A stretch of 64,000 nt of DNA from an uncultured Bacteroidota bacterium (GTDB lineage Bacteria > Bacteroidota > Bacteroidia > Bacteroidales > GWA2-32-17): contig CAILUD010000001.1 in assembly GCA_903837285.1 (NCBI GenBank), positions 1-64,000 on the forward strand, given 5' to 3'. Of the stretch, positions 10,463 to 64,000 are shown in pieces. The notes under the pieces are model-generated. The model was not told where the DNA came from. It did no database searches and was given only the letters and a program-made list of their open reading frames with translations. Position 1 is the stretch's first letter, and the number at the start of each line of letters is the position of its first letter. The position numbers and the translations under genes are program-made.

Positions 10463-10489
10463 AAAAATGAATTAATTATAATAATGAAG

Positions 10490-10518
10490 ATGGCTAGTGA
10501 AAATAACTAGCCATTTTT
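10490..10518 (+). terminator. Rho-independent terminator after the first adhesin
   Basis: A perfect 9-bp stem (ATGGCTAGT at 10490-10498 with ACTAGCCAT at 10506-10514) with a 7-nt loop is followed by TTTT. It lies 27 bp after the stop of the first adhesin, so the next paralogue probably has its own promoter. Confidence 0.75.
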
Positions 10519-10541
10519 AATAAACATAAAATGTGTTTTTG

Positions 10542-14357: not shown

Positions 14358-14398
14358 TTTTGTTTTAAGTTTGTAAATGATGGTAATTTTAAATTTAA

Positions 14399-38135: not shown

Positions 38136-41100
38136 CTACCTCAAAATATACATTTTCCCAAATCCCTCTTTAAAGAATTTGTCGGCATCTGTTGCTCTGT
38201 GTTCAATAGTTTCACTATTTAGTTTTGCAATAACTTTGAAGAAATATACTCCATTTGCTAATTTGTCGCCATACATATCGGTACCATCCCAGGCAAATTG
38301 TGTAATGTTATTGCCAATATGAATTAAGCCTAATTCGTTTAATCCAATTTCTCTTACAAATTTACCTGTAACAGTTATTATTTGTATTCTAAAGTCATCA
38401 GGAATTTCAGAACCGGTTAAGGTAAATACAAATCTGGTTGAAGTACTGAAAGGGTTAGGGTAATTATAAACATTTGTTATTGTTGATTTGTTAATCACTT
38501 CAAAATTTATTCGGTAGTCATTACTTCCGCTTTCGTTATTCGAAATATCTTTTGCTTGTATACGCAATTGATATTTACCATCATCAAGTGTTGGTCTGTA
38601 TTCAATAATACAACTGTTGTTAGGTAATAGTGCCGGTGTCCATTGAAGTTCTGATAAGGTGCTGTTAAAGTAAATCCTCTTTTCAATGCCGGTTGATTTA
38701 CTTGTTAGATAAATTCCAAAAAGTGCAGTATCATTTAGTCCTAAGAATTTATTTTCGTCTTTTAAATTTGTTAAGATATATGGTTTAGCTGATACAATAT
38801 CGCCATTCATAATATGAATTCCATCAAATGTAACATCGAGCAATGGATTTGTTTTATCGTTCAGTACTACAAATGGCTTTTCTGCATAATTATTAAAATG
38901 GTATTGCTCAACTTGGTCATATGCGCCTGTGTTAGTATCTGTCGGATTAACTTCATACCAGATGTGATTTAAACCAGTATGGCCTGAAGTGTTAAATGTT
39001 ATGGTGTCAATTAATATATCGCCAGCTGGATGAGGTCTTAATTTGCGATAACCTAAATCTAATAGTTGATTGTTTTTATCCTGTAACCAATATCTTACTC
39101 TCAAACTATCCATATTATACTGACTAATGTTTTCTGTAGCAACAGCGAATTTCATAATATCGCCTTCCTGTAAAGTATCGTAGTGAAAAAACAATCCTTT
39201 TGAAGGATTAATAGCAGTTTCAGGGGCTTCGTCATAAGTAATTTGCCAGTGAGATAACTGTGCAGGTGTCTCTAATGAATCATCTTTAGTATTAAATGAA
39301 AGCCTTAAATATGGAAATTGACTAGCGTCTGCGTAATTATAAAGATCGTTAATGTTGTAATTTGTTGTAGGAATATATGGTATGACTAAACTGCTATCAT
39401 TATTTGGTTTAAAAGCTGTTGTTTCTAGGTGAACCTGATCTTTAGTAGGGTTTTCTATTGCACTTTGTTTCCAATGTAAAGTTTTCCAATAGGTAGATGG
39501 GCCAATTAAAGTGGAACGAACATGACCGGAATTATAATGAGTAGGAATTTGAACGTATAAATCAATTGTATCATGATTATTATCACCCCATTCTTCACGA
39601 ACAGTGCTTACATCACCTTTTTTAGCATAAAAGATATAAGGAATATCATTTGCTAATGTTCTGACCTTTGTTGCGCCTAATGCTTCAAATGATTGATATG
39701 TTGCTTCAGGCCATGTTTGAAAAGCGCCATAATTAAAACTATAAGCTAAAATATAAAAACTATCAGGTACTTGTGTTAAAAACGTTGCAAGATTGTCAAT
39801 GTAAGGCGCTGAAACATGAAATACAAAATATTTATCTAGCCTTGTTCTGCTTGGGCAAGAAGAGCTACCTTGAAAACTTGGCCAATTTACCTGACCATAA
39901 TTTCTTGAAAATTCACTTTCCCATGGAACAAGTGTAGTTGGATCAATAACAACAAGTAACATAGCGCCATTTGGGCCACATGACGAGTAGTCTGTTACTG
40001 CATCAAGGTAATACCTAATGCTAAAGTATTCGGCAGGATTTGGAAGTCCTTTGTTATGGCATCTTAGTTCTTTTGGGGAGCTTACAAAATCTAATTTTCT
40101 GTTAGTTCTATTGTAGTCAATATCTGAAAAACCATCTTTTTTAAGCTGAAAGAAATGTGCTTGGGACCAACCTGTTTTCCCTGGAATATAAGTGAATGAA
40201 CTTTCTTTCCAGTTATAACTACCACTACCTTGTGGTACAGGACTGACCCTCCAGAAGTATACCGTGCTATCTGTTAAAGTTAAGTTTGGTGTCCACGAAA
40301 CTATTCCACCAGAATGATTAACAAAACCTGATTCTAATGGGGCCATAAATAAATCTGTAGTATCTATTTCAAATGCATAGTTTTGTATTCCAATAAAAGG
40401 ATAGCCTGTTGATGCCATTAATGTAACAGTATTGTTAGGATGTATGGCAAATTCGTAAGGGAATATAGGGGTAAGATCACCTGAGCGTATTGTTAAATCT
40501 GTGCAAGATGAGTTATTTGTCTCACTCATTTCTGCAATCCAGTTTTCCGAATCAACGTTTACGCAGAAATGATTTATTCCAGGTCCGTTAACAAAATCTA
40601 ATGGAACTTTAATATATAAAGTATCTTTAAAATGACAACCAAATGCAAATTTTGTATAAGTAAATGTAGTTCCGTTTGGCAAAGTTCTGGTTAATGTTAC
40701 TGCAAAAGTATCGTTTATTGCTTTACCAATGTTTGTAATAATTATTTTGACATCAAATGAATCGCTAGCTGCCGAAACCGTAACGATTTCAGGGACAAAG
40801 CTTATTGAACTTGAGTTAATTGTTAAATCAGGTAAAGGGAAAGATTTTAAGTTCACTGCAGGGTCGCCATGTAAAGTAAATTCAAGGCATGTTTTTAACA
40901 TATAATCGCCGTAATCGTTATATATAGTTCGGTTTCCGTCTTTTATGCATTTTCCGATTGGCTTGGTGTAATTTTTATATGCAAATTGTTTGTATAATTC
41001 TGTTGTGTACAAATTTAAATTCCAGGGATAACCTAAGTCAACAGTAGCCAGAAATCCAATTGCTCCTTTTTGCTGAGAGAAGATCCATCTTTCACTTACT

Positions 41101-43073: not shown

Positions 43074-43143
43074 TTTGTAATAATGATGTTGCAAGATACA
43101 AAATATTTTAGTTTTGTATATAGTTTTATACCAACTATATTAG

Positions 43144-43213
43144 AAAATAGCCCTACCTATTGTCCATCTTTTTTTAAGAGGGTAAGGAGATGAATAAAAA
43201 AATGGGCTATTTT
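43144..43213. repeat. Long inverted repeat between porP and the C25 protease
   Basis: Outer arms AAAATAGCCC (43144-43153) and GGGCTATTTT (43204-43213) are a perfect 10-bp pair; an inner pair CATCT (43165-43169) and AGATG (43188-43192) lies within the loop. It occupies the gap between two same-strand genes and may form an RNA hairpin that limits read-through or stabilises the upstream mRNA. Confidence 0.55.
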
Positions 43214-43260
43214 AAAGTTCACCGTGGCGTATAAATGGCGTTAATTCACCATTTAACTAA

Positions 43261-44268
43261 TCAATACTTTGGACAAGGAATAATTACTTTTCTGGTTTTT
43301 TTACGAAGTTTCTGATCCTGATTAAATTCGTAAATTACTGAGATTTCGTGTGAGCCAAGTGTGTTTGCAATTAACCTCGAAATAGTAATGTCGTATGTGT
43401 AGCCTACTTTAAATTCTTTCCATTGATATCCAAAAAGTAATATGATTGCATCATTATTCATATACCCATGTTTGTATGCTTTAAAAAGAGGTATTCCACG
43501 ATACCAGGCTCCAAGGATTATGGGAATCCTTGTCCAGTACATTCCTAAATCCATTTGATCAAATTTACCTTGCGAACGAATATTTACAGCAGCGGTTATA
43601 CTTTCTTCATTATAATTGCTGGTTTTTCCGTTAAGAAAAAATTTGCCACCTCCATGAATTGTGTATTTTGTTGGAACTAAACTAACACCGTCAATTATCG
43701 ATTGATTTGGGGTTGTTAAATGGTCAATTACAAGTCCGCCCCAATATTTTTCGGAATAAATAAGTATTGAAGTTGCAAAATCAGTGTACCTTACTTTTTT
43801 TAATGGTGGTACTTCAATTGAACTAGATGCAGCTCCCGAAAGTGAGAGTTGGTCGTTAAAAACTAATTTGTTAAAATCTATACTTCTCGTACTTCTGTAA
43901 AAATGCATTCCTGGTCTTACTTGAATCCTTTTACTGATTTTAAATTGATATGTATATTGTACTCCAATATTGGTGTTTTTTAAATGTCCTATTCCAGCTC
44001 TGTCTTGCATAACAAGTAATCCAAATCCACTACTGAATTGTGGTACAAAGTGATCAAAAGAAAATGCTGTAGTCATGTATGTGCCTGGAATTGCTGGCCA
44101 TTGGTCTCGAAAATTTAATATGGCACGACTGCCATTTGTTGAGCCTGCAAGCGATGGCGAAAGGTAAAGAGGAGAGGCGTAAAACTGCGAAAATTGAGGA
44201 TCCTGAGCTTTTGCTACAAAGTTCAAAATAATTATAAAAAAGAGTAGTATGTTAAGAAATCTTTTCAT
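43261..44268 (-). CDS. PorP/SprF family outer-membrane protein
   Basis: A 335-residue beta-barrel protein; signal peptide ends near VAKA (21). QDPQFSQFYASPLYLSPSLAG at the mature N-terminus is the defining PorP/SprF motif, followed by alternating strands (YQFKISKRIQVRPGMHFY, VGYTYDITISRLI). Family members are outer-membrane partners that work with T9SS to attach or export specific adhesins; SprF is required for SprB in Flavobacterium johnsoniae. Its ATG overlaps the stop of the upstream TPR/PD40 gene by 4 bp, so translation is coupled; with the PKD adhesin upstream this is a three-gene cargo module in the known order of adhesin, propeller protein, SprF. Confidence 0.92.
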   Translation of the reverse strand: MKRFLNILLFFIIILNFVAKAQDPQFSQFYASPLYLSPSLAGSTNGSRAILNFRDQWPAIPGTYMTTAFSFDHFVPQFSSGFGLLVMQDRAGIGHLKNTNIGVQYTYQFKISKRIQVRPGMHFYRSTRSIDFNKLVFNDQLSLSGAASSSIEVPPLKKVRYTDFATSILIYSEKYWGGLVIDHLTTPNQSIIDGVSLVPTKYTIHGGGKFFLNGKTSNYNEESITAAVNIRSQGKFDQMDLGMYWTRIPIILGAWYRGIPLFKAYKHGYMNNDAIILLFGYQWKEFKVGYTYDITISRLIANTLGSHEISVIYEFNQDQKLRKKTRKVIIPCPKY

Positions 44269-45929
44269 TCATTTATTTTCTTTAAACTTATTGATTTAAA
44301 TAAATCATCTAGCGAAAGTTTTGTAGTCATATCAATTTCTGTAGAGAATGGATAATAACCTTCAGATTCAATTAATACTTTATATTTTTTTCGTGGTAAC
44401 ACAACTAAAATATATCTGCCATTTTTGCCTGTTCTGTATATTCCTTGTAATTCTTTTGTGTCAAAATCTATTATTGTTATAACAGCTTTTACCGGCATAA
44501 ACACGGGTTCGTTTGTTGTAACAGTTCCTTTTAAAATTATTTGGCTGGTTTGTGGGTCAAGAATTTCACCTTTGTAAATATCCATATTGCCTTTTCCGTC
44601 ATCTCTGTTTGATGAAAAATAAATTTGTCTGCCGTCAAATGTTGCAATAAAATAAATATCATCCATAACTGAATTTATAGGGAATCCAAGGTTTTCTGCA
44701 GCTGACCATTGACCATTCTCATTTTTAGTGGTTTTAAAGATATCATATCCACCCATATTTTTATTGCCTTTTGAGCTAAAATAAAGAGTAATTCCGTCAG
44801 GATGAATAAAAGGAGCATCCTCGTCGTATGGTGTGTTAATTGTTGGGCCAAGGTTTAATGGTCTGCTCCAGGTACTGTCAGGCATTTTTGTTACTCTGTA
44901 TATGTCTTTGCCACCATAACCACCATTCCTATTACTGGAAAAATAAATTGTTGACTGATCTGGAGCAATACTTATACTTGATTCTGCGCTGTTTTCGGAG
45001 TTAATATGAGCATCAAATAATATTGGTTCAGACCATTTGCCATCATTGTTTTGAGATACAAAAATATGACCTGTAATTTGGTCTTTACTTGTTCTGTATG
45101 TAAACAATTGCTGTCCATCTTTGGATAATGTTACACATGCGTCATGAGTTTCTGTATTTAATGGTGCCCCAATGTTAATAGGTGTATTCCATGTTGTTCC
45201 TGTTTTTTCTGAAACGTAAATGTCCTCAAAATATTCATAGTAAGGATCTAATAAATCACCTATACTTCCTTTTCTTCTACTTGTAAAAAAAAGTTTTGTT
45301 TCTTCTGGATTTAGTAATGGAACATATTCTGCGTATGGTGTGTTTATGCCATTATTGAAATTTGTTACAGAAGCGTTGGATTTTGTTAAAATCATTTCTT
45401 TTGCAACTACTGATTTTTGCATTAAATAATCTACTTCTTCAATTGAGATATCTGGTTTCTCACCATTATTTTTAAATTCCATATATGACTCAAGTGCTTT
45501 GTCGAACATCATTTTACGATGATAAATCTGACCTAAATAATAATATGCTTCAGAGTAATCATTTTTAGATTTTTCAAATAATGGTAGTGATTCTAATGAT
45601 TGTCTGCGAACTTTAAAAAGACAAGCTCCTAATTTGTAACATACTTCATTATTAGAGGAATCCATTGCATGCAATTCGTTATAAATAGGTAAAGCTAAAT
45701 GAAAGTTGTTATCATTATAATGCAGGTTTGCAGATTCAAGCTTTTTATTAAAAAGCTTATTGTTTTCAAAAGTTTGTGAATTACTTTCTAGTGATGTCAG
45801 TATTAATAAGATTGATAAAAATGTTATTATTGATTTTCTAATCCAAATATGATTTATTTTTTCATATTCGGATTGAATTTGCATATTTAAATGCAAGTTT
45901 TTTTTGTTAATAAAACATGCTATATTCAT
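44265..45929 (-). CDS. TPR / PD40 propeller / carboxypeptidase-regulatory protein without OmpA domain
   Basis: A 554-residue envelope protein. The start at 45929 is 4 bp after the stop of the adhesin; an internal ATG (45884) is an alternative. A hydrophobic segment at ~32-48 (SIITFLSILLILTSL) is the signal peptide. TPRs ~55-180 (NDNNFHLALPIYNELHAMDS); PD40 propeller ~190-460 with TKLFFTSRRKGSIGD, TIYFSSNRNGGYGGKDIYR, ITLYFSSKGNKNMGGYDIF; carboxypeptidase-regulatory-like domain ~465-550 (LKGTVTTNEPVFMPVKAV). It has the same order as the OmpA protein at 30621-32549 but stops before the OmpA domain, so it cannot grip peptidoglycan by that route. Likely an accessory for the adhesin and PorP/SprF encoded beside it. 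Confidence 0.88.
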   Translation of the reverse strand: MNIACFINKKNLHLNMQIQSEYEKINHIWIRKSIITFLSILLILTSLESNSQTFENNKLFNKKLESANLHYNDNNFHLALPIYNELHAMDSSNNEVCYKLGACLFKVRRQSLESLPLFEKSKNDYSEAYYYLGQIYHRKMMFDKALESYMEFKNNGEKPDISIEEVDYLMQKSVVAKEMILTKSNASVTNFNNGINTPYAEYVPLLNPEETKLFFTSRRKGSIGDLLDPYYEYFEDIYVSEKTGTTWNTPINIGAPLNTETHDACVTLSKDGQQLFTYRTSKDQITGHIFVSQNNDGKWSEPILFDAHINSENSAESSISIAPDQSTIYFSSNRNGGYGGKDIYRVTKMPDSTWSRPLNLGPTINTPYDEDAPFIHPDGITLYFSSKGNKNMGGYDIFKTTKNENGQWSAAENLGFPINSVMDDIYFIATFDGRQIYFSSNRDDGKGNMDIYKGEILDPQTSQIILKGTVTTNEPVFMPVKAVITIIDFDTKELQGIYRTGKNGRYILVVLPRKKYKVLIESEGYYPFSTEIDMTTKLSLDDLFKSISLKKINE

Positions 45930-45933
45930 AATG

Positions 45934-48900
45934 TTATCTTATTAATGTTACATCACCTGCTTTAAAAAATGATTGGCCGTCAATAAATTTACCTTTTGCT
46001 TTCCATACATAAACATCTTGTTTACATAATTGTTCTCTGTAGTAACCATCCCATCCTATGTTAGGTTCCTTTGTTTCAAATATTAATTCACCCCAACGGT
46101 TGTATATTGTTAATTCGTACGAATCAACACCTACAAAGACTGGATGAAATACATCATTGTTGTAATCTCCAGGATTGAAATGACCACCATTCGAGCCCGA
46201 AGGATTAGGAGAAAATGCAGAAGGGAAATCGATTTGTCCAGCTGATTTAGCTACAACAGCTCTGAATACTGTTAAAGTATCTGCACATTGGTGTATTGTT
46301 GAAACAAATAACGTGATAGTATATTCGCCTTCTTGTGTATATTTATGCGTAGGGTCTTTTAAGTTAGAAGTATTTCCGTCACCAAAATTCCATAAATAGC
46401 TATCTGCATTTACTGAATTGTTTATGCATTCAATAGCTTGATCGGGAATAAAGACCACAGTTGGAGTAACAGTAAATAATGCAGTTGGTTTTTCGTAAAC
46501 ATGTACAATTCCGCCTCCAATTGAGTCTTGTCCACCTGGCCCCGATACTGAAAGTTGAACATGATAATCTCCTGCATTATAATATGTGTAAATTGGGTTT
46601 TTATCATGAGAAATACCGCCATCACCAAAATCCCAGATATAACTAGATGAGTATAAGCTTTGATTTGAAAATTGAATGGTAAGTGGTTCGCATCCATATT
46701 CATTTATCGAGAAAGCTGCAATTGGAGTTGGAGCATTTATTACAATTGAATCAATATATAAATCGGAACAATGAGCAGAGTATACTAAAAGAGAAATGTT
46801 ATATTGCCCAAAAGTATTATAAGTATGGTTTAATGGTTCAATAATAATGGATGTATCACCATCACCAAAATTCCAGTTGTAATTCCATGGGCCTAATTGA
46901 CTAGTGTTATCAATTGTTATTGTGCCATTGGGAAGTATTTGTGTGTATGGTGTTACGGTAAATGATGCATTTGGTTTTGCCCAAACTTGAATATTTAAAG
47001 AGTATGTATCCGAACATCCATATGCAGAATATGCTATTAAAGTAGCAACAAATGTTTGATCAGTTGAGGTGGAGTTAATATAGTTATGAGTAGGTTGAAA
47101 CTGAGTTGCACTTGATCCATCTCCAAAATTCCATTGATATGAAACTGCCCCCATAGATAGATTTGTGAATTGAGAATTAAGTGGGGAACAATTGGCTGTA
47201 TCTGCAATAAATATTGCGTTTACTTCAGGGTTAACAGTTACTGAAAATGATGAACTATCCCTGCAGTTATAGGAATTCGAAATTATTAATGTTGTATTAT
47301 AAGTTACAGGGTTATTTGTTATATTTGTAAAAATATGATTCACAATTGCACTCGAAGATGCGCTGGTAGTATTATCTCCAAAATTCCAGTTAAACGTATT
47401 TGCTCCAGTAGAAGTATTGTTAAATTGCGCTGAAAATGGTGTGCAACCTGTAGCTTGAAGCATGTTTAAGTTTGCAGTAGGTTTTGGGTAAACAGTTAAT
47501 TGGCCAACGGTGGTATCATTACAGCCATAAACAGATGATGCAATAAGTGAAATGTTAAAATTAATTGCAATCAAAGTTGTATTAACAAAAATATGATCTG
47601 GGTTTGTTTGTGTAGAAGTTGTGCCATCGTTAAAATTCCAGTTAAATGTTACAGCTCCGTATGACTGATTCTGGAATTGTACCGAAATTGGAGAACAACC
47701 TACCGTGTCGGCAATAAATATCGATTGAACTCCTGGATACACTACAATTGGTAGTGAAGTAGAATCTGAACATCCTTGGCTATTATAAACTACTAAACTA
47801 ATATAAATTGTTAAAGGAATATTTGTCGTATTAATAAATGAATGACTAATATTTGTGTTATTTTGAATTTCATTTGTTCCATCTCCCCAATACCATTTGC
47901 AAATTGTTGCACCAGTTGAGTTGTTTGTAAAATTAAATGTTGCAGGTGAGCAACCTGATGAGTTTTGAACAGAAATAGCGGCAGTAGGTTTTGGTCTGAT
48001 TACAACTTGGCTTAATGATGTATCAATACAACCAAAAAAGGATGTTCCTATTAACTGAATAATAAAAGTCTGGTCATTACTTCCTGTATTAGCATATGGA
48101 TGATTAATTGTAAATCCTGCAGATTGTGAAGTTCCATCTCCAAACGTCCATAAATATGAACTAGCACCTGGTTGAGTTATGAATTGAATATTTGCAGGAT
48201 GGCAAGCAGTATCGGGTGTTACTGTAATAGTGTAATTTGGATCAGGATACACTGTAACGTATTTTGTAGATGTATCAGGGCATCCAAAAGAATTAAATGC
48301 AATAAGCTTTACCTCGTAATATTGAATAAGAGTTGTACTGTTAATAAAAGTGTGATTTGGGTTATTTGTTATTATAATAGGCGTTCCGTCTCCAAAATCC
48401 CAAACGTAATTAGTGGCTCCTGATGAAAAATTTGTAAATTCTACTGTAACCGGACTGCATGAAGGAACACCGTTATGTAAAAAATTAGAAATAGGAAGTG
48501 GATGCACAGTTAATTGATGGGTAATTGAATCTTTACATCCATAAGTAGAAGTTGCAGTCAATTTAATCTGATAAACAATATCTGTTGTTCCGGAATTTGA
48601 AAAAACATGAGTAGGATTAATATTTGTTGATTGCCCACCATCACTATATTGCCATAGATATGATGCACCCCCTATTGTTGAATTAGTATGGGTTACAGAA
48701 AAAGGAGGGCACCCGCTTGTGTCAATAGGGGAAAAATTTGGATTTGGAACAACATCAAAACTAATATTAACTGTATCTGCATCAATACACCCATTTGAAT
48801 TGTTCTCATGCCACTGGTATGAGTACATTCCAAAAGTATTTACGCTGATATTTGTTATTGGAGTAGTTGTACTTCCGAAATTAGTTACACCCGGTCCGGC

Positions 48901-50889
48901 AATTTGCAACCAATAGCCTGCTCCTGCTGATGGAAATGCTTGAAGTGTTGTTGACATTCCACATAAAGTGTCATCTGTTCCTGCATTTGAAATAGGTTGT
49001 TGTATAAATGTTATTTCAACTGTATCGAAATCTGTGCAGGAAGGGCCAAATGTTTCTTGCCATCTGATATTATATGTTCCATATTGAGATGCCGTAACAT
49101 TACTTGAAGCTGAGCTGGCCAATGTGAAATTTAATGTCCCTGGTCCATTTATCAAAGTCCATAAACCCGCTCCAAAGCTAGGTGTAGAATTTAATGTATA
49201 AGTTGTTCCACAAATACTATCGTCAACTCCGGCATTTGCTATTGGAACAGGAAAAACTGTAATAGAGATATTGTCACTTCCTATGCAGCCATTATTGTCT
49301 GAAACTGTATATGTAAGGTTATAGGTTCCAGTAATGGTGCAATTAAATATTGGATTTTGAATGTTTGCGGAATTTATAAAGGTAGTATTTCCACTCCATA
49401 AATGCGAACTATAAGTTCCAGTTCCTCCAGTTGGATTGCCGTTTAATTGAAAATTTATACCTGCACATGCCTGTGCTGGATCTGGTGTTATATTAGCAGA
49501 TACTTGTGTAACATTAATTACCATATTTTGTTGCCGATTACACCCATTTGAATCAGTAACTCTATAGGTTAAATTATAAGTTCCTGGAGTATTTGTAGTG
49601 AAATAAGGAGTTTGAATATTTGTAGAACTTAACGGACCTGTATTGCCTGTCCATAAATGTGTTATAATTGTTCCGTCTCCTGGGGTTGGGTTGCCGTTAA
49701 GGAATAAAGTATCGCCTGGACAAACTTGTAAATTTGTGCCAGGTAAAATATTAATTGTTGGTCTAGCCCAAACTATAATGTTAATTGTTCCAACACCTGC
49801 ACAACCATTTGCATTTACAACAGTGTATGTTATTGTATGTGTTCCGGGGCCTGCAACTGAAGGGCTAAATTGACCAGTTGTAGTATTTGTTATTCCGGTT
49901 CCAGACCATAATCCACCGGGTGTTGCTGCAGTTAAATTAACTGGCAATGCGTTTGAGCAGAATGGTCCGACTGGTTGAATTGTTGCATCTGGATAAGGAA
50001 CTATTAAAACCATCGCTGTTGTAATTATCGGAGCGTAATCACCATTAATTAAATCAACTGGTGGACCAGGAACATTTGGATCATCATAAGGGTTACAATA
50101 ATTCCAGTTTCTTAAAGTTACTTCAAAAAATTGGTTTACTAATGCTGTGTTAGGTGAATATACCGGTAAACTTGTATTATTTGGAGGTTGAGGGCCAAGA
50201 ACTGGTCCTGTTGCCGGTACAACTGCGCCCCAGAATGGGTATGCGTGTGGGACTCCTCCAACTAAAACATTATTTATTGTGTAATTTGTTCCGTATATCC
50301 ATTGTGTCCATCTTGTAGGGTCGTTTGGATTATCAAGTTCTACTGGTGGAACACAATTCCATAAACTTACATCTTGAAATGTTACAGTACCGTCATTTCC
50401 AACACAAATAGGAAAAATAACAGGAGTAATCTCTAAATGTCCTCCATTGTGGTCGTCAGTATCCCAAACTGTTACATTTTGTTGCTGAATAGAACTAGTG
50501 CATAAAACTCCGTTAACCATTAAAGTTGCTTCTGGTAAATAATTGCATAAAGGACCATTTTGCGGGTAAATATGTGTAATTGTGGCTTTCCATTCTCTAA
50601 CAATGGGGCTTGGATTAGTGTTTATTGCAGCAACTATTTGAACAGGATTTCCATCGTCCCAGTTAAATTGAATATTTACAGGCGTTCCATTGTTATTTAC
50701 TCCTCTATATGTGACTTCCCAAACAACAGTTACGGGAGCACAAAGCTTGTCTGGTAAAATATCATTTGCTTTTGAAACAATATTGCAGTCCTGAGAAAAA
50801 AGAAAGTTAGAATTTAATGAAAGTATAAAAAAAAGAAAAAAAGTCTTTAAAGTATGTTTAATAAAAAATGGTTGGAATAGCTTCTTCAT
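45934..50889 (-). CDS. Giant PKD-repeat adhesin with CHU_C domain, first gene of the SprF-type operon
   Basis: The start is placed at 50889 (MKKLFQPFFIKHTLKTFF, signal peptide ending FLFSQ); an upstream ATG at 50925 adds 12 residues. The 1,651-residue protein begins with a Cys-rich domain (~35-290), then Ig-like segments (~300-720) with WSGTGITN and LWTGNTGPL repeated. Ten PKD domains follow (~720-1560), each with a W-F-G-D-G core such as YVWDFGDGT, YLWTFGDGT and YIWDFGDGG. The CHU_C domain closes the chain (PSAFSPNPSGSNGG, ELTIYNRWGELIFET, GWDGYYREQL). It is 4 bp before the TPR/PD40 gene and in one operon with PorP/SprF, so it is the most likely cargo of that pair. Role in adhesion or gliding is by family inference. 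Confidence 0.92.
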   Translation of the reverse strand: MKKLFQPFFIKHTLKTFFLFFILSLNSNFLFSQDCNIVSKANDILPDKLCAPVTVVWEVTYRGVNNNGTPVNIQFNWDDGNPVQIVAAINTNPSPIVREWKATITHIYPQNGPLCNYLPEATLMVNGVLCTSSIQQQNVTVWDTDDHNGGHLEITPVIFPICVGNDGTVTFQDVSLWNCVPPVELDNPNDPTRWTQWIYGTNYTINNVLVGGVPHAYPFWGAVVPATGPVLGPQPPNNTSLPVYSPNTALVNQFFEVTLRNWNYCNPYDDPNVPGPPVDLINGDYAPIITTAMVLIVPYPDATIQPVGPFCSNALPVNLTAATPGGLWSGTGITNTTTGQFSPSVAGPGTHTITYTVVNANGCAGVGTINIIVWARPTINILPGTNLQVCPGDTLFLNGNPTPGDGTIITHLWTGNTGPLSSTNIQTPYFTTNTPGTYNLTYRVTDSNGCNRQQNMVINVTQVSANITPDPAQACAGINFQLNGNPTGGTGTYSSHLWSGNTTFINSANIQNPIFNCTITGTYNLTYTVSDNNGCIGSDNISITVFPVPIANAGVDDSICGTTYTLNSTPSFGAGLWTLINGPGTLNFTLASSASSNVTASQYGTYNIRWQETFGPSCTDFDTVEITFIQQPISNAGTDDTLCGMSTTLQAFPSAGAGYWLQIAGPGVTNFGSTTTPITNISVNTFGMYSYQWHENNSNGCIDADTVNISFDVVPNPNFSPIDTSGCPPFSVTHTNSTIGGASYLWQYSDGGQSTNINPTHVFSNSGTTDIVYQIKLTATSTYGCKDSITHQLTVHPLPISNFLHNGVPSCSPVTVEFTNFSSGATNYVWDFGDGTPIIITNNPNHTFINSTTLIQYYEVKLIAFNSFGCPDTSTKYVTVYPDPNYTITVTPDTACHPANIQFITQPGASSYLWTFGDGTSQSAGFTINHPYANTGSNDQTFIIQLIGTSFFGCIDTSLSQVVIRPKPTAAISVQNSSGCSPATFNFTNNSTGATICKWYWGDGTNEIQNNTNISHSFINTTNIPLTIYISLVVYNSQGCSDSTSLPIVVYPGVQSIFIADTVGCSPISVQFQNQSYGAVTFNWNFNDGTTSTQTNPDHIFVNTTLIAINFNISLIASSVYGCNDTTVGQLTVYPKPTANLNMLQATGCTPFSAQFNNTSTGANTFNWNFGDNTTSASSSAIVNHIFTNITNNPVTYNTTLIISNSYNCRDSSSFSVTVNPEVNAIFIADTANCSPLNSQFTNLSMGAVSYQWNFGDGSSATQFQPTHNYINSTSTDQTFVATLIAYSAYGCSDTYSLNIQVWAKPNASFTVTPYTQILPNGTITIDNTSQLGPWNYNWNFGDGDTSIIIEPLNHTYNTFGQYNISLLVYSAHCSDLYIDSIVINAPTPIAAFSINEYGCEPLTIQFSNQSLYSSSYIWDFGDGGISHDKNPIYTYYNAGDYHVQLSVSGPGGQDSIGGGIVHVYEKPTALFTVTPTVVFIPDQAIECINNSVNADSYLWNFGDGNTSNLKDPTHKYTQEGEYTITLFVSTIHQCADTLTVFRAVVAKSAGQIDFPSAFSPNPSGSNGGHFNPGDYNNDVFHPVFVGVDSYELTIYNRWGELIFETKEPNIGWDGYYREQLCKQDVYVWKAKGKFIDGQSFFKAGDVTLIR

Positions 50890-50978
50890 GCCAGTTTTTA
50901 TTTTTATTATATTATACGACTTCATGGTGCTAAAGTTAGTTGTTTATTTTACGTTTTTTAAATTGGCATTCAAATTTT

Positions 50979-54821: not shown

Positions 54822-55418
54822 TTACTCAACTATAACTTTAGTAATATATGATTTTTTATCTGCGATTATTTCTAATAGATAAATGCCTTTAGGGTATGCA
54901 GAAAAGTCGATTTCGTCTGATAAGAATTGATTATAGACTATTTTTTCTCCTGTAATATTGTATATTGTTAAAATGCTATTTAGATTATCTGTTTTAAAGT
55001 TAGTTTGAATTGATATTTTGCTATTTGTTGGATTTGGAAATGCTGCAAAAAAGTATTTATTATTAAAATTAATATTTTCACCAGCAACATTATTGACGTA
55101 AACTCTTCCTTTCATTCCCATAAAAGCATGGTTAGTGCAAACATAATAATGCATTCCAGCCGTTAATCCAGTAATTTGACCTCCAGTAAATGGAGTCGAA
55201 AAACCTTCTGGAAGCGCTGAAGTTCCATTTAAATTCCATGTAGTTTGACTAACTTCCACCGCATTATGTATTGAACCAAGTTGAAAAATTAATGTGTCTC
55301 CTAAGTTTAAACTAATACTATCTGGTGAAAAAACAAAACCAGAATTAATTATTGTTACTTTATTGCTAAATGCTACTCCGGAATAAAGTGCAAAAGCTAT
55401 TAAAATTATTTTTTTCAT
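54822..55418 (-). CDS. Cupredoxin (plastocyanin/pseudoazurin-like) with type A T9SS sorting domain
   Basis: I place the start at 55418 (MKKIILIAFALYSGVAFSN, signal peptide); the longer frame to 55487 overlaps the 3' end of the upstream cupredoxin gene. Residues ~22-120 form a cupredoxin fold: FVFSPDSISLNLGDTLIFQL, with a copper His in GSIHNAVEVS and the loop YYVCTNHAFMGMKGRVYV carrying Cys, His and Met ligands. Met is 8 positions after Cys, as in pseudoazurin/plastocyanin. Residues ~125-198 are a type A T9SS sorting domain (FAAFPNPTNSKISIQ, ILTIYNITGEKIVYNQ, KGIYLLEIIADKKSYI). So this is a blue-copper electron carrier or copper-binder displayed on the surface. It follows the small cupredoxin by 23 bp. 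Confidence 0.88.
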   Translation of the reverse strand: MKKIILIAFALYSGVAFSNKVTIINSGFVFSPDSISLNLGDTLIFQLGSIHNAVEVSQTTWNLNGTSALPEGFSTPFTGGQITGLTAGMHYYVCTNHAFMGMKGRVYVNNVAGENINFNNKYFFAAFPNPTNSKISIQTNFKTDNLNSILTIYNITGEKIVYNQFLSDEIDFSAYPKGIYLLEIIADKKSYITKVIVE

Positions 55419-55441
55419 TTGAAAATTGTTATTAATTATTA

Positions 55442-55765
55442 TTATTGAACGATTACTTTTCCTTTCATGTTGTTGTGATAAATGCATCGGTATGGATATG
55501 TGCCAATTGTATTGAATGTATAAGAAAATGTTTGGTCTTTAGACATATCACCACTATTAAATATTAAACTATCGCTTGTTACAGAATGTGTTATCGATTC
55601 TTTATTCGTCCAAGTTAGTGTTGTGCCTTTTGTGATTGTAATAGAAGCCGGATCGAATGCAGAATTTATTATATAAACTTCATTTGGTGATGTTGGTTTT
55701 TCTTTTTTACAGCTAGTAAAAATGATAATTAAAAACGCAAATAATAAAAAACTATATTTGTACAT
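55442..55765 (-). CDS. Lipoprotein cupredoxin (amicyanin-like)
   Basis: A 107-residue protein with lipobox (MYKYSFLLFAFLIIIFTSC, then KK). The rest is one cupredoxin domain: SAFDPASITITKGTTLTWTN, the first copper His in SITHSVTSDS, and YPYRCIYHNNMKGKVIV with Cys, His and Met. Met follows Cys by 6 positions, the short-loop form seen in amicyanin. The protein should carry a type 1 copper and shuttle electrons in the envelope, with the redox partner unknown. It is co-transcribed with the T9SS-cargo cupredoxin from a good promoter (55792-55822). Confidence 0.9.
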   Translation of the reverse strand: MYKYSFLLFAFLIIIFTSCKKEKPTSPNEVYIINSAFDPASITITKGTTLTWTNKESITHSVTSDSLIFNSGDMSKDQTFSYTFNTIGTYPYRCIYHNNMKGKVIVQ

Positions 55766-56597: not shown

Positions 56598-56630
56598 ATT
56601 TAAAATATTATAACAAGAAACCAATTGAAC

Positions 56631-59600
56631 ATGAAAACAAATATATTTTCACTTACAAAAATTATTTTTATTGTTATTGCTTTATTTAGCATTTTGAATA
56701 AAGGTTATGGGCAAACAGTAATAATTTCTCCAACCGGCGATGGTGGATTTGAAACAGGAGCTACTTTGGCAGCAAATGGATGGACTGGTGTCACCGGTGC
56801 AAATGGAGGATGGTATTTTAATACCGTTGCGGTTAATAATAATGCATATACATTTATGCCAACAGGTGCAAGGTCTTTATATTTTTCAAATAATTCTGGC
56901 ACAAATTGGAAATATGACCCGAATATTAATCCTCCTGGTTGTGCACATTTTTACAGAAATGTTACGTTCCCAGCTGGCGAAACAAATATCGATTTGTCTT
57001 TTAGATGGAATGCAAATGGTGAAAGTTCATGGGATATTTTATATGTTTATCTTTGTCCAACAACTTTAACACCTGCTGCAAATAGTCCTTCAGGTAGTTC
57101 TTCAGTGCCAACTTGGACTGGTACAGGAACTCCAGTTTTATTAGGTTCTTATAATTTATTATCACCTGGAACAGGTACAGCATCAACTATAAATATTCCG
57201 GCTTCATATGCTGGAACTACTCAACGTTTAGTCTTTTCTTGGAAAAGCGATGATACATTTGGTAATGAACCACCAGCTGCAATAGATCAGATTAATCTTA
57301 CTTCTTCAACACCTTCTGTACCCAATAATACTCCTTGCACCGCAGTTAGTCTAACTCCAGGAAATTGCACGCCTACCCAAGGTGATGTTTTAGGTGCAAC
57401 TCAATCTTATGCTGGTTGTACAGGTAATGCAAATGATGATGTTTGGTATTCATTTGTTGCAACATCTTCAGCACATGAAATTTTAGTTACCCCGTCAGTT
57501 AATTTTAATGCAGTATGGGAAATATATGTGGGTGCTGCTTGTGGTTCTGTTTCAAGTGCAGGATTATGTGTAAATGGTTATTCAACTGGAATACCTGAAG
57601 ATGTTATTGTTACTGGCTTTACAGCTGGAACAAGGTATTATATAAGGGTTTATGATTCTCTTGCAGTTATGCCCGCAACTACAACTTTTGATATTAGTGT
57701 TGATAAACCATATCTTCTTAATGCTACCTTAAATGGCACCACAATTACTGAGTGTTGTACTAAAATTTATGATAGTGGTGGCGGATCTGCAGATTATGCA
57801 AATAATGAAAATTATACTGTCACATATCAATCTGGTGGAGCTGGTCAGAGAATAAGAATGACTTTTTGGGAATTTGCAACACAGTTAAATACAGATTTTC
57901 TTTGGATTTATGATGGTCCATCAACTGCTAGCCCTTTATTATTTAAATATTCAGGAACGCCTACTTATTTACCAGATGCAGTTTCATCTGGTCAATATCT
58001 TACTATTCAATTTACTTCAAATAATAGCACCAGAGCTGCTGGTTTTACAGCTGATTTGAAATGTGAAAACATACCTCCAGCTCCGGGGCTTTGTAATGGT
58101 AATACACCAGCTAGTGATAATTGCGCAAGTGCAACACAAATTTGTGACCCTAATGGTTATTGCGGAAATACAAGTAGTTATTATACACCGGATTTGCCTG
58201 GAAACATGTGTTCTGGATGTGGTCTTTTTGGTGGAAGTATTGAAAATAATTCCTGGATATCATTTACTGCTGCTGCAACTACTGCAACACTTCAATTTAA
58301 TACCGACAATTGTGCAAATAACTGGGGTATACAGTTTGGAATTTATTCAGGTACTAATTGTAATACTTATGTTTTATTAACAGATCCTTTAAAGACCCAA
58401 AACGCTCAAATTGGGTTACAAAATATAACTGCCACTGGGTTAACTATAGGAAATACATATTATATAATGGTTGATGGTTTTGCGGGTGATGTTTGTAATT
58501 ATACTATTGATGTATTAGCCGGTATCATGCAGGGAACTGTTAGTGGTTCAAATACTATTTGTTATGGAGCTGCAGGTGTTACTTATACCATGGGTGCTGT
58601 TGCAACAGGTTATAATTGGACAGTTCCTGCAGGTGCTTCTATTACAGCTGGAGCTGGAACAAGTACCATTACTGTGAATTGGGGAACTGCTACTTCTGGC
58701 AATGTTACATGTACTGCCACTGCAGGTACTTGTAATGGTGCGTCCGATACTTATCCTGTAACAGTTACTCCAATTGTTGGTACTCCGGTATTTACTTTAG
58801 GCGCAACATCAACCCGTTGTCAGGGAGCTGGATCAGTAACTTATGGCGCAACTGCAACAAATACAACAGGTATAACTTATAGTTTAGATGCAGCAAGTTT
58901 AGGTGCTGGGAATACAATTAATTCTGGAACTGGTGCCGTTTCATATGTAGCAGGATGGAGTGGAACGTCAACAATTACTGCTAGCGCAGCAGGTTGTGGT
59001 GGTCCAAAAACAGCAACTCATGTAGTAACAATTACACCAACTGTAACAATAAATGCATTTTCTCCAGCAACATCAACTCGTTGCCAGGGTGCAGGAACAG
59101 TAACAACTACAACAACTGCAACAAATTCAACAGGTATAACATATAGTATAGACGCTGCAAGTATAGCTGGTAGTGTTACAATAGTAGCCGGAACAGGTGC
59201 TGTAACGTATCCAGCAGGTTGGAGTGGAACGACAACAATAACTGCAAGTGCTGCAGGTTGTAATGGTCCGGTAACAACAACACATGTAGTGACAATTACT
59301 CCTACTGTGGGACTTCCAGTGTTTACTTTAGGTGCAACATCAACCCGTTGTCAAGGTGCAGGATCAGTAACTTATGGTGCAACTGCAACAAATACAACAG
59401 GAATAACTTATACTTTAGATGCTGCAAGTATAGCAGGAAGTGTTACTATAGTTGCCGGAACAGGCGTTGTAACATATCCTGCAAGTTGGAGTGGAACAAC
59501 AACAATAACTGCAAGTGCAGCTGGTTGTAATGGTCCACGAACTTCAACGCATGTAGTAACAATAACCCCAACTGTAACAATAAACGCATTTTCTCCAGCA

Positions 59601-62600
59601 ACATCAACTCGTTGCCAGGGTGCAGGAACAGTAACAACTACAACAACTGCAAATAATTCAACAGGAATAACATATAGTATAGATGCTGCAAGTTTAGCAG
59701 GTAGTGTTACAATAGTAGCCGGAACAGGTGCTGTAACATATCCAGCAAGCTGGAGTGGAACAACCACAATAACTGCAAGTGCTGCAGGTTGTAATGGTCC
59801 AGCAACTACAACTCATGTAGTAACAATTACTCCAACTGTAACAATAAATGCATTTGCTCCGGCAACATCGACACGTTGTCAAGGTGCAGGAACAGTTACA
59901 ACTACAACAACAGCAAATAATTCAACAGGAATAACTTATACTTTAGATGCTGCAAGTATAGCAGGTAGCGTAACAATAGTAGCCGGAACAGGCGCAGTAA
60001 CATATCCAGCAGGTTGGAGTGGAACAACAACAATAACTGCAAGTGCAGCAGGCTGTAATGGTCCTGCAACAACAACTCATGTAGTAACAATTACACCAAC
60101 TGTAACAATAAACGCATTTTCTCCGGCAACATCAACTCGTTGCCAGGGTGCAGGAACAGTAACAACTACAACAACTGCAACAAATTCAACTGGTATAACA
60201 TATAGTATTGATGCAGCAAGTTCTGGTGCAGGTAACACAATAGTTGCTGGAACTGGAGCACTAACCTATGTAGCAGGTTGGAGTGGAACAACAACAATAA
60301 CTGCAAGTGCAGCTGGTTGTAATGGTCCGGTAACAACAACCCATGTAGTAACAATTACTCCTACTGTAGGACTTCCAGTATTTACATTAGGTGCAACATC
60401 AACCCGTTGTCAGGGTGCAGGATCAGTAACTTATGGTGCAACTGCAACAAATACAACAGGAATAACTTATACTTTAGATGCTGCAAGTATAGCAGGAAGC
60501 GTTACAATAGTAGCCGGAACAGGCGCTGTAACATATCCAGCAGGTTGGAGTGGGACAACAACAATTACTGCAAGTGCAGCAGGTTGTAATGGCCCAAGAA
60601 CTTCAACACATGTAGTAACAATAACCCCAACTGTAACAATAAACGCATTTTCTCCTGCAACATCAACTCGTTGCCAGGGTGCAGGAACAGTAACAACTAC
60701 AACAACTGCAACAAATTCAACTGGTATAACATATAGTATAGATGCTGCAAGTATAGCCGGTAGTGTAACAATAGTAGCCGGAACAGGCGCTGTAACATAT
60801 CCTGCTAGTTGGAGTGGGACAACAACAATAACTGCAAGTGCTGCAGGTTGTAATGGTCCTGCAACAACAACACATGTTGTGACAATTACTCCTACTGTGG
60901 GACTTCCAGTGTTTACTTTAGGTGCAACATCAACTCGTTGTCAGGGTGCAGGATCAGTAACTTATGGTGCAACTGCAACAAATTCAACTGGTATAACATA
61001 TGGTATAGATGCTGCAAGTATCGCAGGTAGTGTTACTATAGTAGCCGGAACAGGCGCTGTAACATATCCAGCTAGTTGGAGTGGAACAACCACAATTACT
61101 GCAAGTGCAGCTGGTTGTAATGGTCCACGAACTTCAACACATGTAGTAACAATAACCCCAACTGTAACAATAAACGCATTTTCTCCAGCAACATCAACTC
61201 GTTGCCAGGGTGCAGGAACAGTAACAACTACAACAACTGCAAATAATTCAACAGGAATAACATATAGTATAAATGCAGCAAGTATAGCTGGTGGTGTTAC
61301 TGTAGTAGCCGGAACAGGCGCTGTAACATATCCAGCAGGTTGGAGTGGGACAACAACAATTACTGCAAGTGCAGCAGGTTGTAATGGCCCTGCAACAACA
61401 ACCCATGTAGTAACAATTACACCTACTGTTGGTACACCAATTTTTACTTTAGGCACAACTTCTTCACGTTGTCAAGGTGCGGGTATAGTAACATATGCTG
61501 CAACTGCAACAAATTCAACAGGTATTTCTTATAGTTTAGATGCAGCAAGTATAGCTGGAGGTGTTACAATTATTGCCGCTACAGGTGATGTGACATACCC
61601 GGCAAACTGGAGTGGAACAACAATAATTACAGCAAGTGCAACAGGTTGTAATGGTCCAGTAGTTTCAACTCATACAGTTACTGTAAATGCTTTAGCTGTA
61701 ATAAGCTCAGTGGTTAAAACAAATGTTACAATTTGTTCTGGTTCTGATGGTACAATTACTATTACTGCAACAGGTTCAACTCCTCTTACTTATTCTATAA
61801 ATGGAGGAACTTCATTTATAGCAAATGGAGGAATATTTACTGGTTTACCTAGTGCAACTTATAATATTGCAGTTAAAAATAGTTTTGGTTGTATTACTTA
61901 TGGAAGTGCTATAACTATTAGTGATGGTGGTGCTCCAGCTGCCCCAGTAGCCGGAACAAATGCTACATATTGTACAGGTGCTGCATTAGCGAATTTAACA
62001 GCAACAGCTTCTGCAGGTGGAACTTTAACTTGGTATTCAAATCCTGGCTTAACAACTGTAATTACAAATGGAACAATTTTAGCTCCTTTTAATACTATAG
62101 GTGTATCAAATTATTATATTACAGAAACTGTTGCAGGTTGTCAGAGTGCTGCTACAATGCTTACAGTAACAATTACTCCTTCTGTAACAATAAACGCATT
62201 TTCTCCAGCAACATCAACCCGTTGTCAGGGAGCAGGTACTGTAACAACTACAACAACTGCAAATAATTCAACAGGAATAACTTATAGTTTAGATGCAGCG
62301 AGTATAGCAGGTAGTGTTTCAATAGTAGCCGGAACAGGTGCTGTGACATATCCAGCAGGTTGGAGTGGAACAACAACAATAACTGCAAGTGCAGCAGGCT
62401 GTAATGGTCCAGCAACAACAACTCATGTAGTAACAGTTACTCCAACTGTAACAATAAATGCATTTACACCAGCAACATCGACACGTTGTCAAGGTGCAGG
62501 TACAGTAACAACTACAACAACCGCAAATAATTCAACAGGTATAACTTATAGTATAGATGCAGCGAGTATAGCTGGCGGTGTAACTATAGTTGCCGGAACA

Positions 62601-64000
62601 GGTGCTGTAACATATCCAGCAGGCTGGAGTGGAACAACAACAATAACTGCAAGTGCAGCAGGATGTAATGGTCCCGCAATAACAACTCATATAGTAACAA
62701 TAACTCCTACTGTAACAATAAACGCATTTACACCAGCAACTTCAATTCGTTGTCAGGGTGCAGGAACTGTAACAACTACAACAACTGCAACAAATTCAAC
62801 TGGAATTACATATAGTATAGATGCGACGAGTATAGCTGGTGGTGTTTCAATAGTTGCCGGAACAGGTGCTGTAACATATCCAGCAGGCTGGAGTGGAACA
62901 ACAACAATAACTGCAAGTGCAGCAGGCTGTAATGGTCCAGCAACAACAACTCATGTAGTAACAATAACTCCTACTGTAACAATAAACGCATTTTCTCCAG
63001 CAACATCAACTCGTTGTCAGGGTGCAGGAACTGTAACAACTACAACAACTGCAACAAATTCAACAGGCATTACTTATAGTATAGATGCTGCAAGTATAAC
63101 AGGTGGAGTTACTATAGTAGCTGGAACCGGTGCTGTAACATATCCAGCAGGTTGGAGTGGTACAACAACAATAACTGCAAGTGCAGCAGGCTGTAATGGT
63201 CCAGCAACAACAGCACATGTAGTAACAATAACTCCAACTGTAACAATAAACGCATTTACACCAGCAACCTCAATTCGTTGTCAGGGTGCAGGAACAGTAA
63301 CAACTACTACAACTGCATCAAATTCAACAGGTATAACATATAGTATAGATGCAGCAAGCTCTGGTGCGGGTAACACTATTGTTGCTGCAACAGGTGCATT
63401 GACATATGTAGCAGGTTGGAGTGGAACAACAACAATAACCGCAAGTGCAGCAGGTTGTAATGGCCCAGCGACAACAACTCATGTGGTAACAATTACTCCT
63501 TCTGTTTTTGTTAATCCTTTTGCTCTTGCGACCTCTTCTCGTTGTCAGGGTGCAGGTACAGTAACTTATTCAACTACTGCAATAAATAATTTAAGTTTAA
63601 TATATAGTATTGATGCTGCTAGTATAGCAGGTGGTGTTACAATAGTTTCAGGAACAGGTGCTGTAACTTATCCAGCAGGCTGGAGTGGAATAACAACTAT
63701 TACTGCAACTGCAACAGGATGTAATGGTCCAGTTAATACAATACATACAGTTACTGTAAATCCTTTACCTGTTGCTTCTTCAACTACATCAGGTATTTTA
63801 TGTAATGGACAATCTACAACTGTTTCTGTTTCTGGTATAGGTGGAACTTTACCTTATTCAGGAATTGGATCTTTTACAGAATTTGTAGGAACATATAATT
63901 ATATTATTACTGATGCAAATGGGTGTACAGCATCTACTAGTATTACACTTACCGAACCTGCAGTTTTAGTTGCAAGTTCATCATCAACACCTATATTATG
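56631..64000 (+). CDS. Giant repeat adhesin, 3' end beyond the window
   Basis: The frame stays open from the ATG at 56631 to the right edge, 2,456 codons, with the same frame at both ends of the repeat array. Signal peptide ~1-28 (MKTNIFSLTKIIFIVIALFS, ends YGQ). Head: jelly-roll domain ~30-227; PPC-like domain ~237-358 (NDDVWYSFVATSSAHEILV); CUB-like domain ~367-478 (CCTKIYDSGGGS, DFLWIYDGPSTASPLLF); second PPC-like domain ~484-633; PKD-like domain ~635-716. Then 11 copies of an 88/89-residue repeat (716-1687), an Ig/SprB-like spacer, 6 more copies (1852-2378) and a SprB-type repeat that is cut by the edge. Repeat signature: STRCQGAG ... GITYSIDAASIAG ... TYPAGWSGTTTITASAAGCNGP ... THVVTITPT. 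Two Cys per unit probably pair. A CHU_C or type A sorting domain is expected downstream. Surface adhesion is inferred. Confidence 0.92.
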   Translation, partial: MKTNIFSLTKIIFIVIALFSILNKGYGQTVIISPTGDGGFETGATLAANGWTGVTGANGGWYFNTVAVNNNAYTFMPTGARSLYFSNNSGTNWKYDPNINPPGCAHFYRNVTFPAGETNIDLSFRWNANGESSWDILYVYLCPTTLTPAANSPSGSSSVPTWTGTGTPVLLGSYNLLSPGTGTASTINIPASYAGTTQRLVFSWKSDDTFGNEPPAAIDQINLTSSTPSVPNNTPCTAVSLTPGNCTPTQGDVLGATQSYAGCTGNANDDVWYSFVATSSAHEILVTPSVNFNAVWEIYVGAACGSVSSAGLCVNGYSTGIPEDVIVTGFTAGTRYYIRVYDSLAVMPATTTFDISVDKPYLLNATLNGTTITECCTKIYDSGGGSADYANNENYTVTYQSGGAGQRIRMTFWEFATQLNTDFLWIYDGPSTASPLLFKYSGTPTYLPDAVSSGQYLTIQFTSNNSTRAAGFTADLKCENIPPAPGLCNGNTPASDNCASATQICDPNGYCGNTSSYYTPDLPGNMCSGCGLFGGSIENNSWISFTAAATTATLQFNTDNCANNWGIQFGIYSGTNCNTYVLLTDPLKTQNAQIGLQNITATGLTIGNTYYIMVDGFAGDVCNYTIDVLAGIMQGTVSGSNTICYGAAGVTYTMGAVATGYNWTVPAGASITAGAGTSTITVNWGTATSGNVTCTATAGTCNGASDTYPVTVTPIVGTPVFTLGATSTRCQGAGSVTYGATATNTTGITYSLDAASLGAGNTINSGTGAVSYVAGWSGTSTITASAAGCGGPKTATHVVTITPTVTINAFSPATSTRCQGAGTVTTTTTATNSTGITYSIDAASIAGSVTIVAGTGAVTYPAGWSGTTTITASAAGCNGPVTTTHVVTITPTVGLPVFTLGATSTRCQGAGSVTYGATATNTTGITYTLDAASIAGSVTIVAGTGVVTYPASWSGTTTITASAAGCNGPRTSTHVVTITPTVTINAFSPATSTRCQGAGTVTTTTTANNSTGITYSIDAASLAGSVTIVAGTGAVTYPASWSGTTTITASAAGCNGPATTTHVVTITPTVTINAFAPATSTRCQGAGTVTTTTTANNSTGITYTLDAASIAGSVTIVAGTGAVTYPAGWSGTTTITASAAGCNGPATTTHVVTITPTVTINAFSPATSTRCQGAGTVTTTTTATNSTGITYSIDAASSGAGNTIVAGTGALTYVAGWSGTTTITASAAGCNGPVTTTHVVTITPTVGLPVFTLGATSTRCQGAGSVTYGATATNTTGITYTLDAASIAGSVTIVAGTGAVTYPAGWSGTTTITASAAGCNGPRTSTHVVTITPTVTINAFSPATSTRCQGAGTVTTTTTATNSTGITYSIDAASIAGSVTIVAGTGAVTYPASWSGTTTITASAAGCNGPATTTHVVTITPTVGLPVFTLGATSTRCQGAGSVTYGATATNSTGITYGIDAASIAGSVTIVAGTGAVTYPASWSGTTTITASAAGCNGPRTSTHVVTITPTVTINAFSPATSTRCQGAGTVTTTTTANNSTGITYSINAASIAGGVTVVAGTGAVTYPAGWSGTTTITASAAGCNGPATTTHVVTITPTVGTPIFTLGTTSSRCQGAGIVTYAATATNSTGISYSLDAASIAGGVTIIAATGDVTYPANWSGTTIITASATGCNGPVVSTHTVTVNALAVISSVVKTNVTICSGSDGTITITATGSTPLTYSINGGTSFIANGGIFTGLPSATYNIAVKNSFGCITYGSAITISDGGAPAAPVAGTNATYCTGAALANLTATASAGGTLTWYSNPGLTTVITNGTILAPFNTIGVSNYYITETVAGCQSAATMLTVTITPSVTINAFSPATSTRCQGAGTVTTTTTANNSTGITYSLDAASIAGSVSIVAGTGAVTYPAGWSGTTTITASAAGCNGPATTTHVVTVTPTVTINAFTPATSTRCQGAGTVTTTTTANNSTGITYSIDAASIAGGVTIVAGTGAVTYPAGWSGTTTITASAAGCNGPAITTHIVTITPTVTINAFTPATSIRCQGAGTVTTTTTATNSTGITYSIDATSIAGGVSIVAGTGAVTYPAGWSGTTTITASAAGCNGPATTTHVVTITPTVTINAFSPATSTRCQGAGTVTTTTTATNSTGITYSIDAASITGGVTIVAGTGAVTYPAGWSGTTTITASAAGCNGPATTAHVVTITPTVTINAFTPATSIRCQGAGTVTTTTTASNSTGITYSIDAASSGAGNTIVAATGALTYVAGWSGTTTITASAAGCNGPATTTHVVTITPSVFVNPFALATSSRCQGAGTVTYSTTAINNLSLIYSIDAASIAGGVTIVSGTGAVTYPAGWSGITTITATATGCNGPVNTIHTVTVNPLPVASSTTSGILCNGQSTTVSVSGIGGTLPYSGIGSFTEFVGTYNYIITDANGCTASTSITLTEPAVLVASSSSTPIL
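58776..61690 (+). repeat. Tandem array 1: 11 units of 264/267 bp
   Basis: The CGT codon of the TRCQGAG motif lies at 58815, 59079, 59346, 59610, 59874, 60138, 60405, 60669, 60936, 61200 and 61467. The step is 264 bp when the next unit is type A (VTINAFSPATS start) and 267 when it is type B (VGTPVFTLGATS start). The order is B A B A A A B A B A B. Units are very similar at DNA level. Confidence 0.95.
62184..63765 (+). repeat. Tandem array 2: 6 units of 264 bp
   Basis: The same codon lies at 62220, 62484, 62748, 63012, 63276 and 63540, always 264 bp apart. All are type A, the last being divergent (VFVNPFALATSSRCQ). A 493-bp spacer with two Ig/SprB-like segments (ICSGSDGTITITATGS; TYCTGAALANLTATAS) separates this array from array 1. 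Confidence 0.93.

Follow-up and report, generated by a model that had tools for sequence, protein, structure and literature searches.

Background

Giant proteins which combine SprB repeats with a T9SS signal are the closest described counterparts of the locus considered here. SprB is a type B adhesin, and PorP/SprF-like proteins are believed to anchor type B T9SS proteins, SprB included, to the cell surface (PMC9143113); SprB adhesins are about 200 nm in length (PMC12635249). GhpA, from Aureispira sp. CCB-QB1, is likewise a giant surface protein of the Bacteroidota, and is represented in the PDB by entries 9flp and 9fly. The window analyzed in the present work, a stretch of 64,000 nucleotides from an uncultured Bacteroidota bacterium, contains part of a gene for a giant protein in which 17 repeated units precede the SprB repeats. 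It is likely that this array forms the rod of a T9SS surface protein, probably an adhesin, and that its mosaic composition arose by internal gene conversion. The array is a clear case of intragenic gene conversion, in which both the kind of protein and the process are already known.

Architecture of the array protein and its surroundings

The array lies within an open reading frame (ORF) of 3559 amino acids, which has no internal stop and ends at contig position 67304, beyond the window. Its N-terminus bears a hydrophobic stretch which, judged by eye, resembles a signal peptide, and its domains follow in the order CUB, PKD_6, 11 units, a spacer composed of an SprB-like module and Ig_7, 6 units, about 11 SprB repeats and CHU_C. 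The features outside the units are as follows.

56625..64000, plus strand: part of the ORF inside the window, starting at TTG 56625 or ATG 56631
57792..58052, plus strand: CUB domain (PF00431), E 9.8e-07
58527..58754, plus strand: PKD_6 domain (PF19408), immediately before the array, E 2.1e-13
61695..62183, plus strand: spacer of 163 amino acids (SprB-like module and Ig_7) between units 11 and 12
61935-62180, plus strand: Ig_7 domain match (PF19081) in the spacer
63768..64000, plus strand: beginning of the SprB-repeat stalk, which continues past the window
contig 67023-67292, plus strand: CHU_C (PF13585), C-terminal T9SS signal, E 1.1e-16

The SprB repeats (PF13573) after the array occupy 11 stretches (E 4.6e-68), and since they are combined with CHU_C at the C-terminus, the product is probably a type B T9SS giant protein, probably located on the cell surface. 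The same genome codes for SprA of the T9SS translocon (SprA_N, E 3e-171), and contains 19 matches to PorP/SprF and about 50 to CHU_C. An adjoining PorP/SprF partner is common among type B T9SS proteins, without strictly defining them; none adjoins the array gene on either side, and the nearest, at 43261-44268, is close to a different CHU_C gene. This PorP/SprF gene forms part of a row on the minus strand (38136-50925), in which a C25 peptidase (PorU-like), the PorP/SprF gene, a PD40/TPR gene (PorE-like) and a gene with PKD and CHU_C domains are found together, and which resembles the PorE-PorP-type B cargo set (PMC9143113).

The next gene downstream of the array gene (contig 67619-77569; L139:620-10570) codes for another giant SprB-repeat/CHU_C protein of 3316 amino acids, the first 2460 of which were covered by the domain scan. 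In G004, an array from the same genus, an SprB-repeat-rich ORF of 3346 amino acids likewise follows the array ORF. Elsewhere in the window, a pair of small cupredoxin-like genes overlap at 54822-55765 on the minus strand, one of which has a T9SS sorting tail, and three consecutive long ORFs of 1332, 1274 and 1235 amino acids, each of which has CHU_C as its last domain, occupy 6464-18106 on the plus strand. Rfam and tRNA scans returned nothing.

Layout of the array

The 17 units, of 88 or 89 amino acids, span 58776-63767. A preliminary sequence-only reading had placed the array at 58776-63765; its start is confirmed, and the true end lies two bases further. The number of repeats, their order, the two types of middle and the right ends were all found as that reading had described them, and the two cysteines that it attributed to every unit are present in 17 of 17. 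The units are arranged as follows.

58776..59042, plus strand: unit 1, B, variant of the N-type middle
59043..59306, plus strand: unit 2, A
59307..59573, plus strand: unit 3, B
59574..59837, plus strand: unit 4, A
59838..60101, plus strand: unit 5, A
60102..60365, plus strand: unit 6, A, SGAGN..YV middle
60366..60632, plus strand: unit 7, B
60633..60896, plus strand: unit 8, A
60897..61163, plus strand: unit 9, B
61164..61427, plus strand: unit 10, A
61428..61694, plus strand: unit 11, divergent B, end of block 1
62184..62447, plus strand: unit 12, A
62448..62711, plus strand: unit 13, A
62712..62975, plus strand: unit 14, A
62976..63239, plus strand: unit 15, A
63240..63503, plus strand: unit 16, A, SGAGN..YV middle
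63504..63767, plus strand: unit 17, divergent A, end of the array

The order is thus B A B A A A B A B A B, followed by the spacer of 163 amino acids and six A units. The B units (1, 3, 7, 9 and 11) have 89 amino acids, and the A units, which comprise all the others, have 88, being one codon shorter after codon 8. Each block is closed by a divergent unit, a B unit (11) in the first and an A unit (17) in the second, with 66-77% DNA identity to the other units. The second, N-type middle occurs in units 6 and 16, and a variant of it in unit 1, while the right end GPRTST is confined to B units 3, 7 and 9. Tandem Repeats Finder (TRF) reports two arrays with a period of 264 bp.

Mosaicism and its origin

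The mosaicism is real at the DNA level, whereby middles have been exchanged between two persisting end-types. Units 3, 7 and 9 show fixed DNA differences from nine A units (2, 4, 5, 8, 10 and 12-15) at 25 sites, which is the highest count among 220 unit triples, the runner-up having 1. All 25 sites lie within codons 2-25 and 78-87, and none was found among the 48 variable sites of codons 26-77 (hypergeometric P 9e-10). Units 6 and 16 are set apart from the rest of the core solely at codons 42-58. The fourfold sites follow the same division: identity between B and A units is 67% in the left end and 56% in the right, compared to 85% and 76% among A units, whereas in the middle the two values are 68% and 67%.

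Phylogenies of the left, middle and right segments are incongruent between the middle and the ends. In AU tests, the middle data reject the left tree (p 6e-11) and the right tree (p 9e-7), the left data reject the middle tree (p 9e-40), and the right data reject both the left tree (p 8e-7) and the middle tree (p 7e-9). A PHI-type test at 40 nt gives p 0.001 whether it is applied to all units, the 14 core units or the A units alone, and at 100 nt is significant for the all-unit set only. Segment distances of left and right ends are correlated (Mantel r 0.74, p 0.0002 for all units; 0.67 for the core), whereas those of left and middle are not (r 0.21, p 0.10; core -0.03), and no two segments are correlated when the A units are taken by themselves. 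The segment trees, the positions of the fixed sites and the fourfold sites thus support the exchange within the array that had been proposed from the sequence, yet the independent assortment of all three segments, which had also been proposed, is not borne out: the left and right ends are linked, and the middle alone moves.

These patterns are probably accounted for by two old, interleaved unit classes, A and B, distinguished by codons 2-25 and 78-87. Gene conversion would have copied the B middle (codons about 26-77, with V46..P58) into most of the A units, and the older N-type middle would have been left behind in units 1, 6 and 16. Unequal crossing-over of out-of-register units, which changes unit number and involves no conversion, is a rather unlikely explanation of the whole pattern and could be the source of part of it. 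The number of units does vary, with 11 and 6 in the window and 11 after the same spacer in the sister-genus array G006, and the right end of a unit is weakly correlated with the left end of the following one (r 0.34). In addition, an exact repeat of 132 bp, longer than any other in the array, ties the end of units 3 and 9 to the start of units 4 and 10, and its position across the 3/4 and 9/10 junctions indicates that longer tracts moved as well. The right end, however, follows its own left end (r 0.70) more closely than that of the next unit. Moreover, in units 3, 7 and 9 the B ends flank, on both sides, a middle common to the A units, which places two breakpoints inside one unit, and conversion therefore fits better than a single unequal crossing-over.

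A more elaborate form of exchange, for which we hold out little hope, is an in-gene cassette system, in which fixed end-types would preserve register and the packing of neighbours while the middles continually swap. The swapped surface would then lie around residues 42-58, in coupled V46/P58 or N46 states, and a population would carry rods of differing faces and lengths.

The mosaic is still less likely to be an artefact of assembly, created by short-read chimeras between near-identical units. The genome is split into 233 contigs, the contig considered here was probably assembled from metagenomic or short-read data, and the arrays of several relatives are cut at contig ends. Chimeric joins between units are nevertheless unlikely, because the exact repeats are short (at most 88 bp apart from that of 132 bp) and because the last three units of G004 carry the middles V/P, N/V and V/P, the same series as units 15-17. 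The class switches also fall within single 88-codon units, and the reading frame is open throughout the array. Least credible of all is the absence of any exchange, with selection keeping the middle fixed and A and B units hence alike there, since, despite a strong constraint on the protein (about 80-81% identity to the A units of G006, with fourfold sites at about 38%), protein selection would not equalize synonymous sites, at which in the middle, unlike either end, the similarity of A to B equals that found within the A class, and since the A and B middles differ in G006.

Among 22 other arrays, most show little signal in the PHI-type test, with z of -5.1 in L071, about -3 in L077, L091 and L086, and weak values in the others. 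The mosaic signal is therefore mainly particular to the array in the window, or has been erased elsewhere by saturation of the DNA.

Direction and age of the exchange

In G006, which belongs to a sister genus of the same family, two of the three B units have the V46..P58 middle and all 16 A units lack it, yet in the window it is carried by 10 of the 12 A units. The A units thus most likely received this middle from B units, to judge by its distribution in the two arrays. The N-type middle of units 1, 6 and 16 has most likely been retained, and N-type prevails elsewhere. Over 402 units, residues 46 and 58 (B numbering) are V with P in 21, most of these V/P units coming from the window's own lineage, N without P in 346 and V without P in 2, a covariation which suggests that the two residues are in structural contact.

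The A units of the window share 91.5% identity in protein, 88.3% in DNA and 71.7% at fourfold sites. Fourfold identity to the same-genus array G004 is lower, at 58.4% (49.5% for the C-terminal flank), which argues that the units were homogenized or spread after the split from the G004 species. This was not recent: the recent expansion suggested by the sequence-only reading is contradicted by fourfold sites which are 72% identical among A units, a synonymous difference of 28%. In G006, the fourfold identity is 39.6% within the array and 38.3% to the window, with 81% identity in protein, and comparison with Flavobacterium, Lutibacter and Gillisia gives identities of 85-89% for the protein and 31-38% for the fourfold sites. 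The combination of a conserved protein with saturated synonymous sites points to long-term selection on the sequence of the unit.

Identity, fold and distribution of the unit

No Pfam or NCBIfam model reaches its cut-off with any of the 17 units of the window, and the Pfam cut-off of PKD_6 (25 bits) is likewise reached by none of them. Scans of the units and 83 diverse relatives against Pfam, NCBIfam and PHROGs gave, besides PKD_6, scattered chance matches, PDB sequence searches with unit profiles returned nothing credible, and a literature search for the unit motif string found no match. Short matches to antibody frameworks in the PDB search were discounted.

A distant kinship is nonetheless evident in a one-to-one comparison by hhalign, in which the unit profile matches PKD_6, from a set cleaned of units, with a probability of 91.6 (E 8e-07), compared to 3.7 for SprB and 4.1 for Ig_7 as controls, the Ig_7 profile being shallow (3 sequences). 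Four units of the L086 and L080 arrays score above the PKD_6 cut-off (30-41 bits) and are located beside B-type units. Of note is the region L086:6504-11255, where PKD_6-scoring and B-type units are mixed, a composition that naturally links one type of domain to the other. The absence of a named domain for the repeat, as originally supposed, therefore holds for the family models, and the unit is best called a putative divergent branch near PKD_6, as yet uncatalogued.

The Ig-like fold which had been anticipated is predicted with high confidence. In the AlphaFold2 models the unit is a beta-sandwich that includes a single short helix, with pLDDT of 97.2 for a model of three units and 96.5 for a model of one. 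Cadherin EC and further Ig-like domains are nearest to it in topology, and the predicted fold matches the cadherin EC domain with Z of about 10-11 and an rmsd of about 2 over 83-87 residues. The phi-29 capsid Ig domain and cadherins, which top the fold lists, were read as sharing a common topology and not as kin.

A disulfide between Cys15 and Cys74 of each unit is plausible. Among the related units, both cysteines are present in 370 of 402, and the second alone in 24 of 402, most of which close their array; this lone cysteine may pair elsewhere. The last detected unit often lacks the first cysteine (L084, L107, L092, L091, L077, L085, L099, L110 and L106).

The unit is widespread in the Bacteroidota, with 402 full copies at about 75-77 loci and up to 29 per array. 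Its loci are found in Flavobacterium, Gillisia, Lutibacter, Tenacibaculum, Lacihabitans and Segetibacter, as well as in Saprospiraceae, Prolixibacter, Hymenobacter, Pedobacter and many metagenome-assembled genomes. Matches occur in 9 of 60 genomes of near relatives, including the window's own and one whose match contains stop codons and is probably spurious, and in 6 of 395 genomes sampled across the phylum, again including the window's own. The spacer of G006 has an equivalent position with respect to the end block and is 69% identical, at 162 amino acids compared to 163. Since the unit is common yet has no Pfam or NCBIfam model, the proteins which bear it are under-annotated, and the present alignment and fold suffice to build a family model.

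Proposed function

Each unit would fold into a single cadherin/Ig-like beta-sandwich that probably contains one disulfide, and the 17 units, arranged in a row, would form an extended rod. Such a rod would hold the CUB-bearing N-terminal tip off the cell, atop the SprB-repeat stalk. By analogy with described proteins of this kind, the role of the protein is probably adhesion.

Alternatively, the rod may be no adhesin at all and serve passively as a spacer, or as a surface coat which does not adhere, a reading which we regard as possible and on balance doubtful. It draws on the units themselves, which are near-identical, rich in T, S, G and A and devoid of an obvious binding site, such that a ligand-binding appearance is limited to the CUB and flanking domains. 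Against this, the gliding adhesin SprB is among the giant SprB-repeat proteins with CHU_C that have been studied to date (PMC9143113), and GhpA is a grappling hook and, by its PDB annotation, a related giant surface protein.

Comparison with known systems

The protein in which the array is carried, for which adhesion is the favoured role, resembles SprB of Flavobacterium johnsoniae in its giant size, its SprB repeats and its CHU_C-type T9SS signal, and differs from it in having a CUB/PKD_6 tip and a 17-unit array before the repeats, and no sprF neighbour. With GhpA the likeness is concentrated in the spacer (61695-62183), which aligns to many GhpA repeats (E 3.5e-30), and a structural match to the GhpA base was found; the 88-amino-acid units do not match the GhpA sequence. 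At the level of the single unit, PKD_6 is both the neighbouring domain in the ORF and the profile-profile match, yet the units have their own strongly conserved motifs, TSTRCQGAG, GITYSLDAAS, TGAVTYxAGWSG and ASAAGCNGP. Compared to the cadherin EC domain, which is similar in predicted fold, sequence identity is 12-24%, evidence of calcium sites is absent, and the pair of cysteines is not a cadherin feature.

The array, for which outgroups provide the polarity, cleanly illustrates how giant T9SS surface proteins of the Bacteroidota grow and diversify: tandem Ig-like units remain under strong selection at the protein level while their DNA saturates, and conversion is restricted to their middles. 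Repeats within one gene are likewise homogenized in spider silk genes (PMC3933166). Set beside the silk type of concerted evolution, exchange in the array is limited to the unit middle, and two classes of ends persist.
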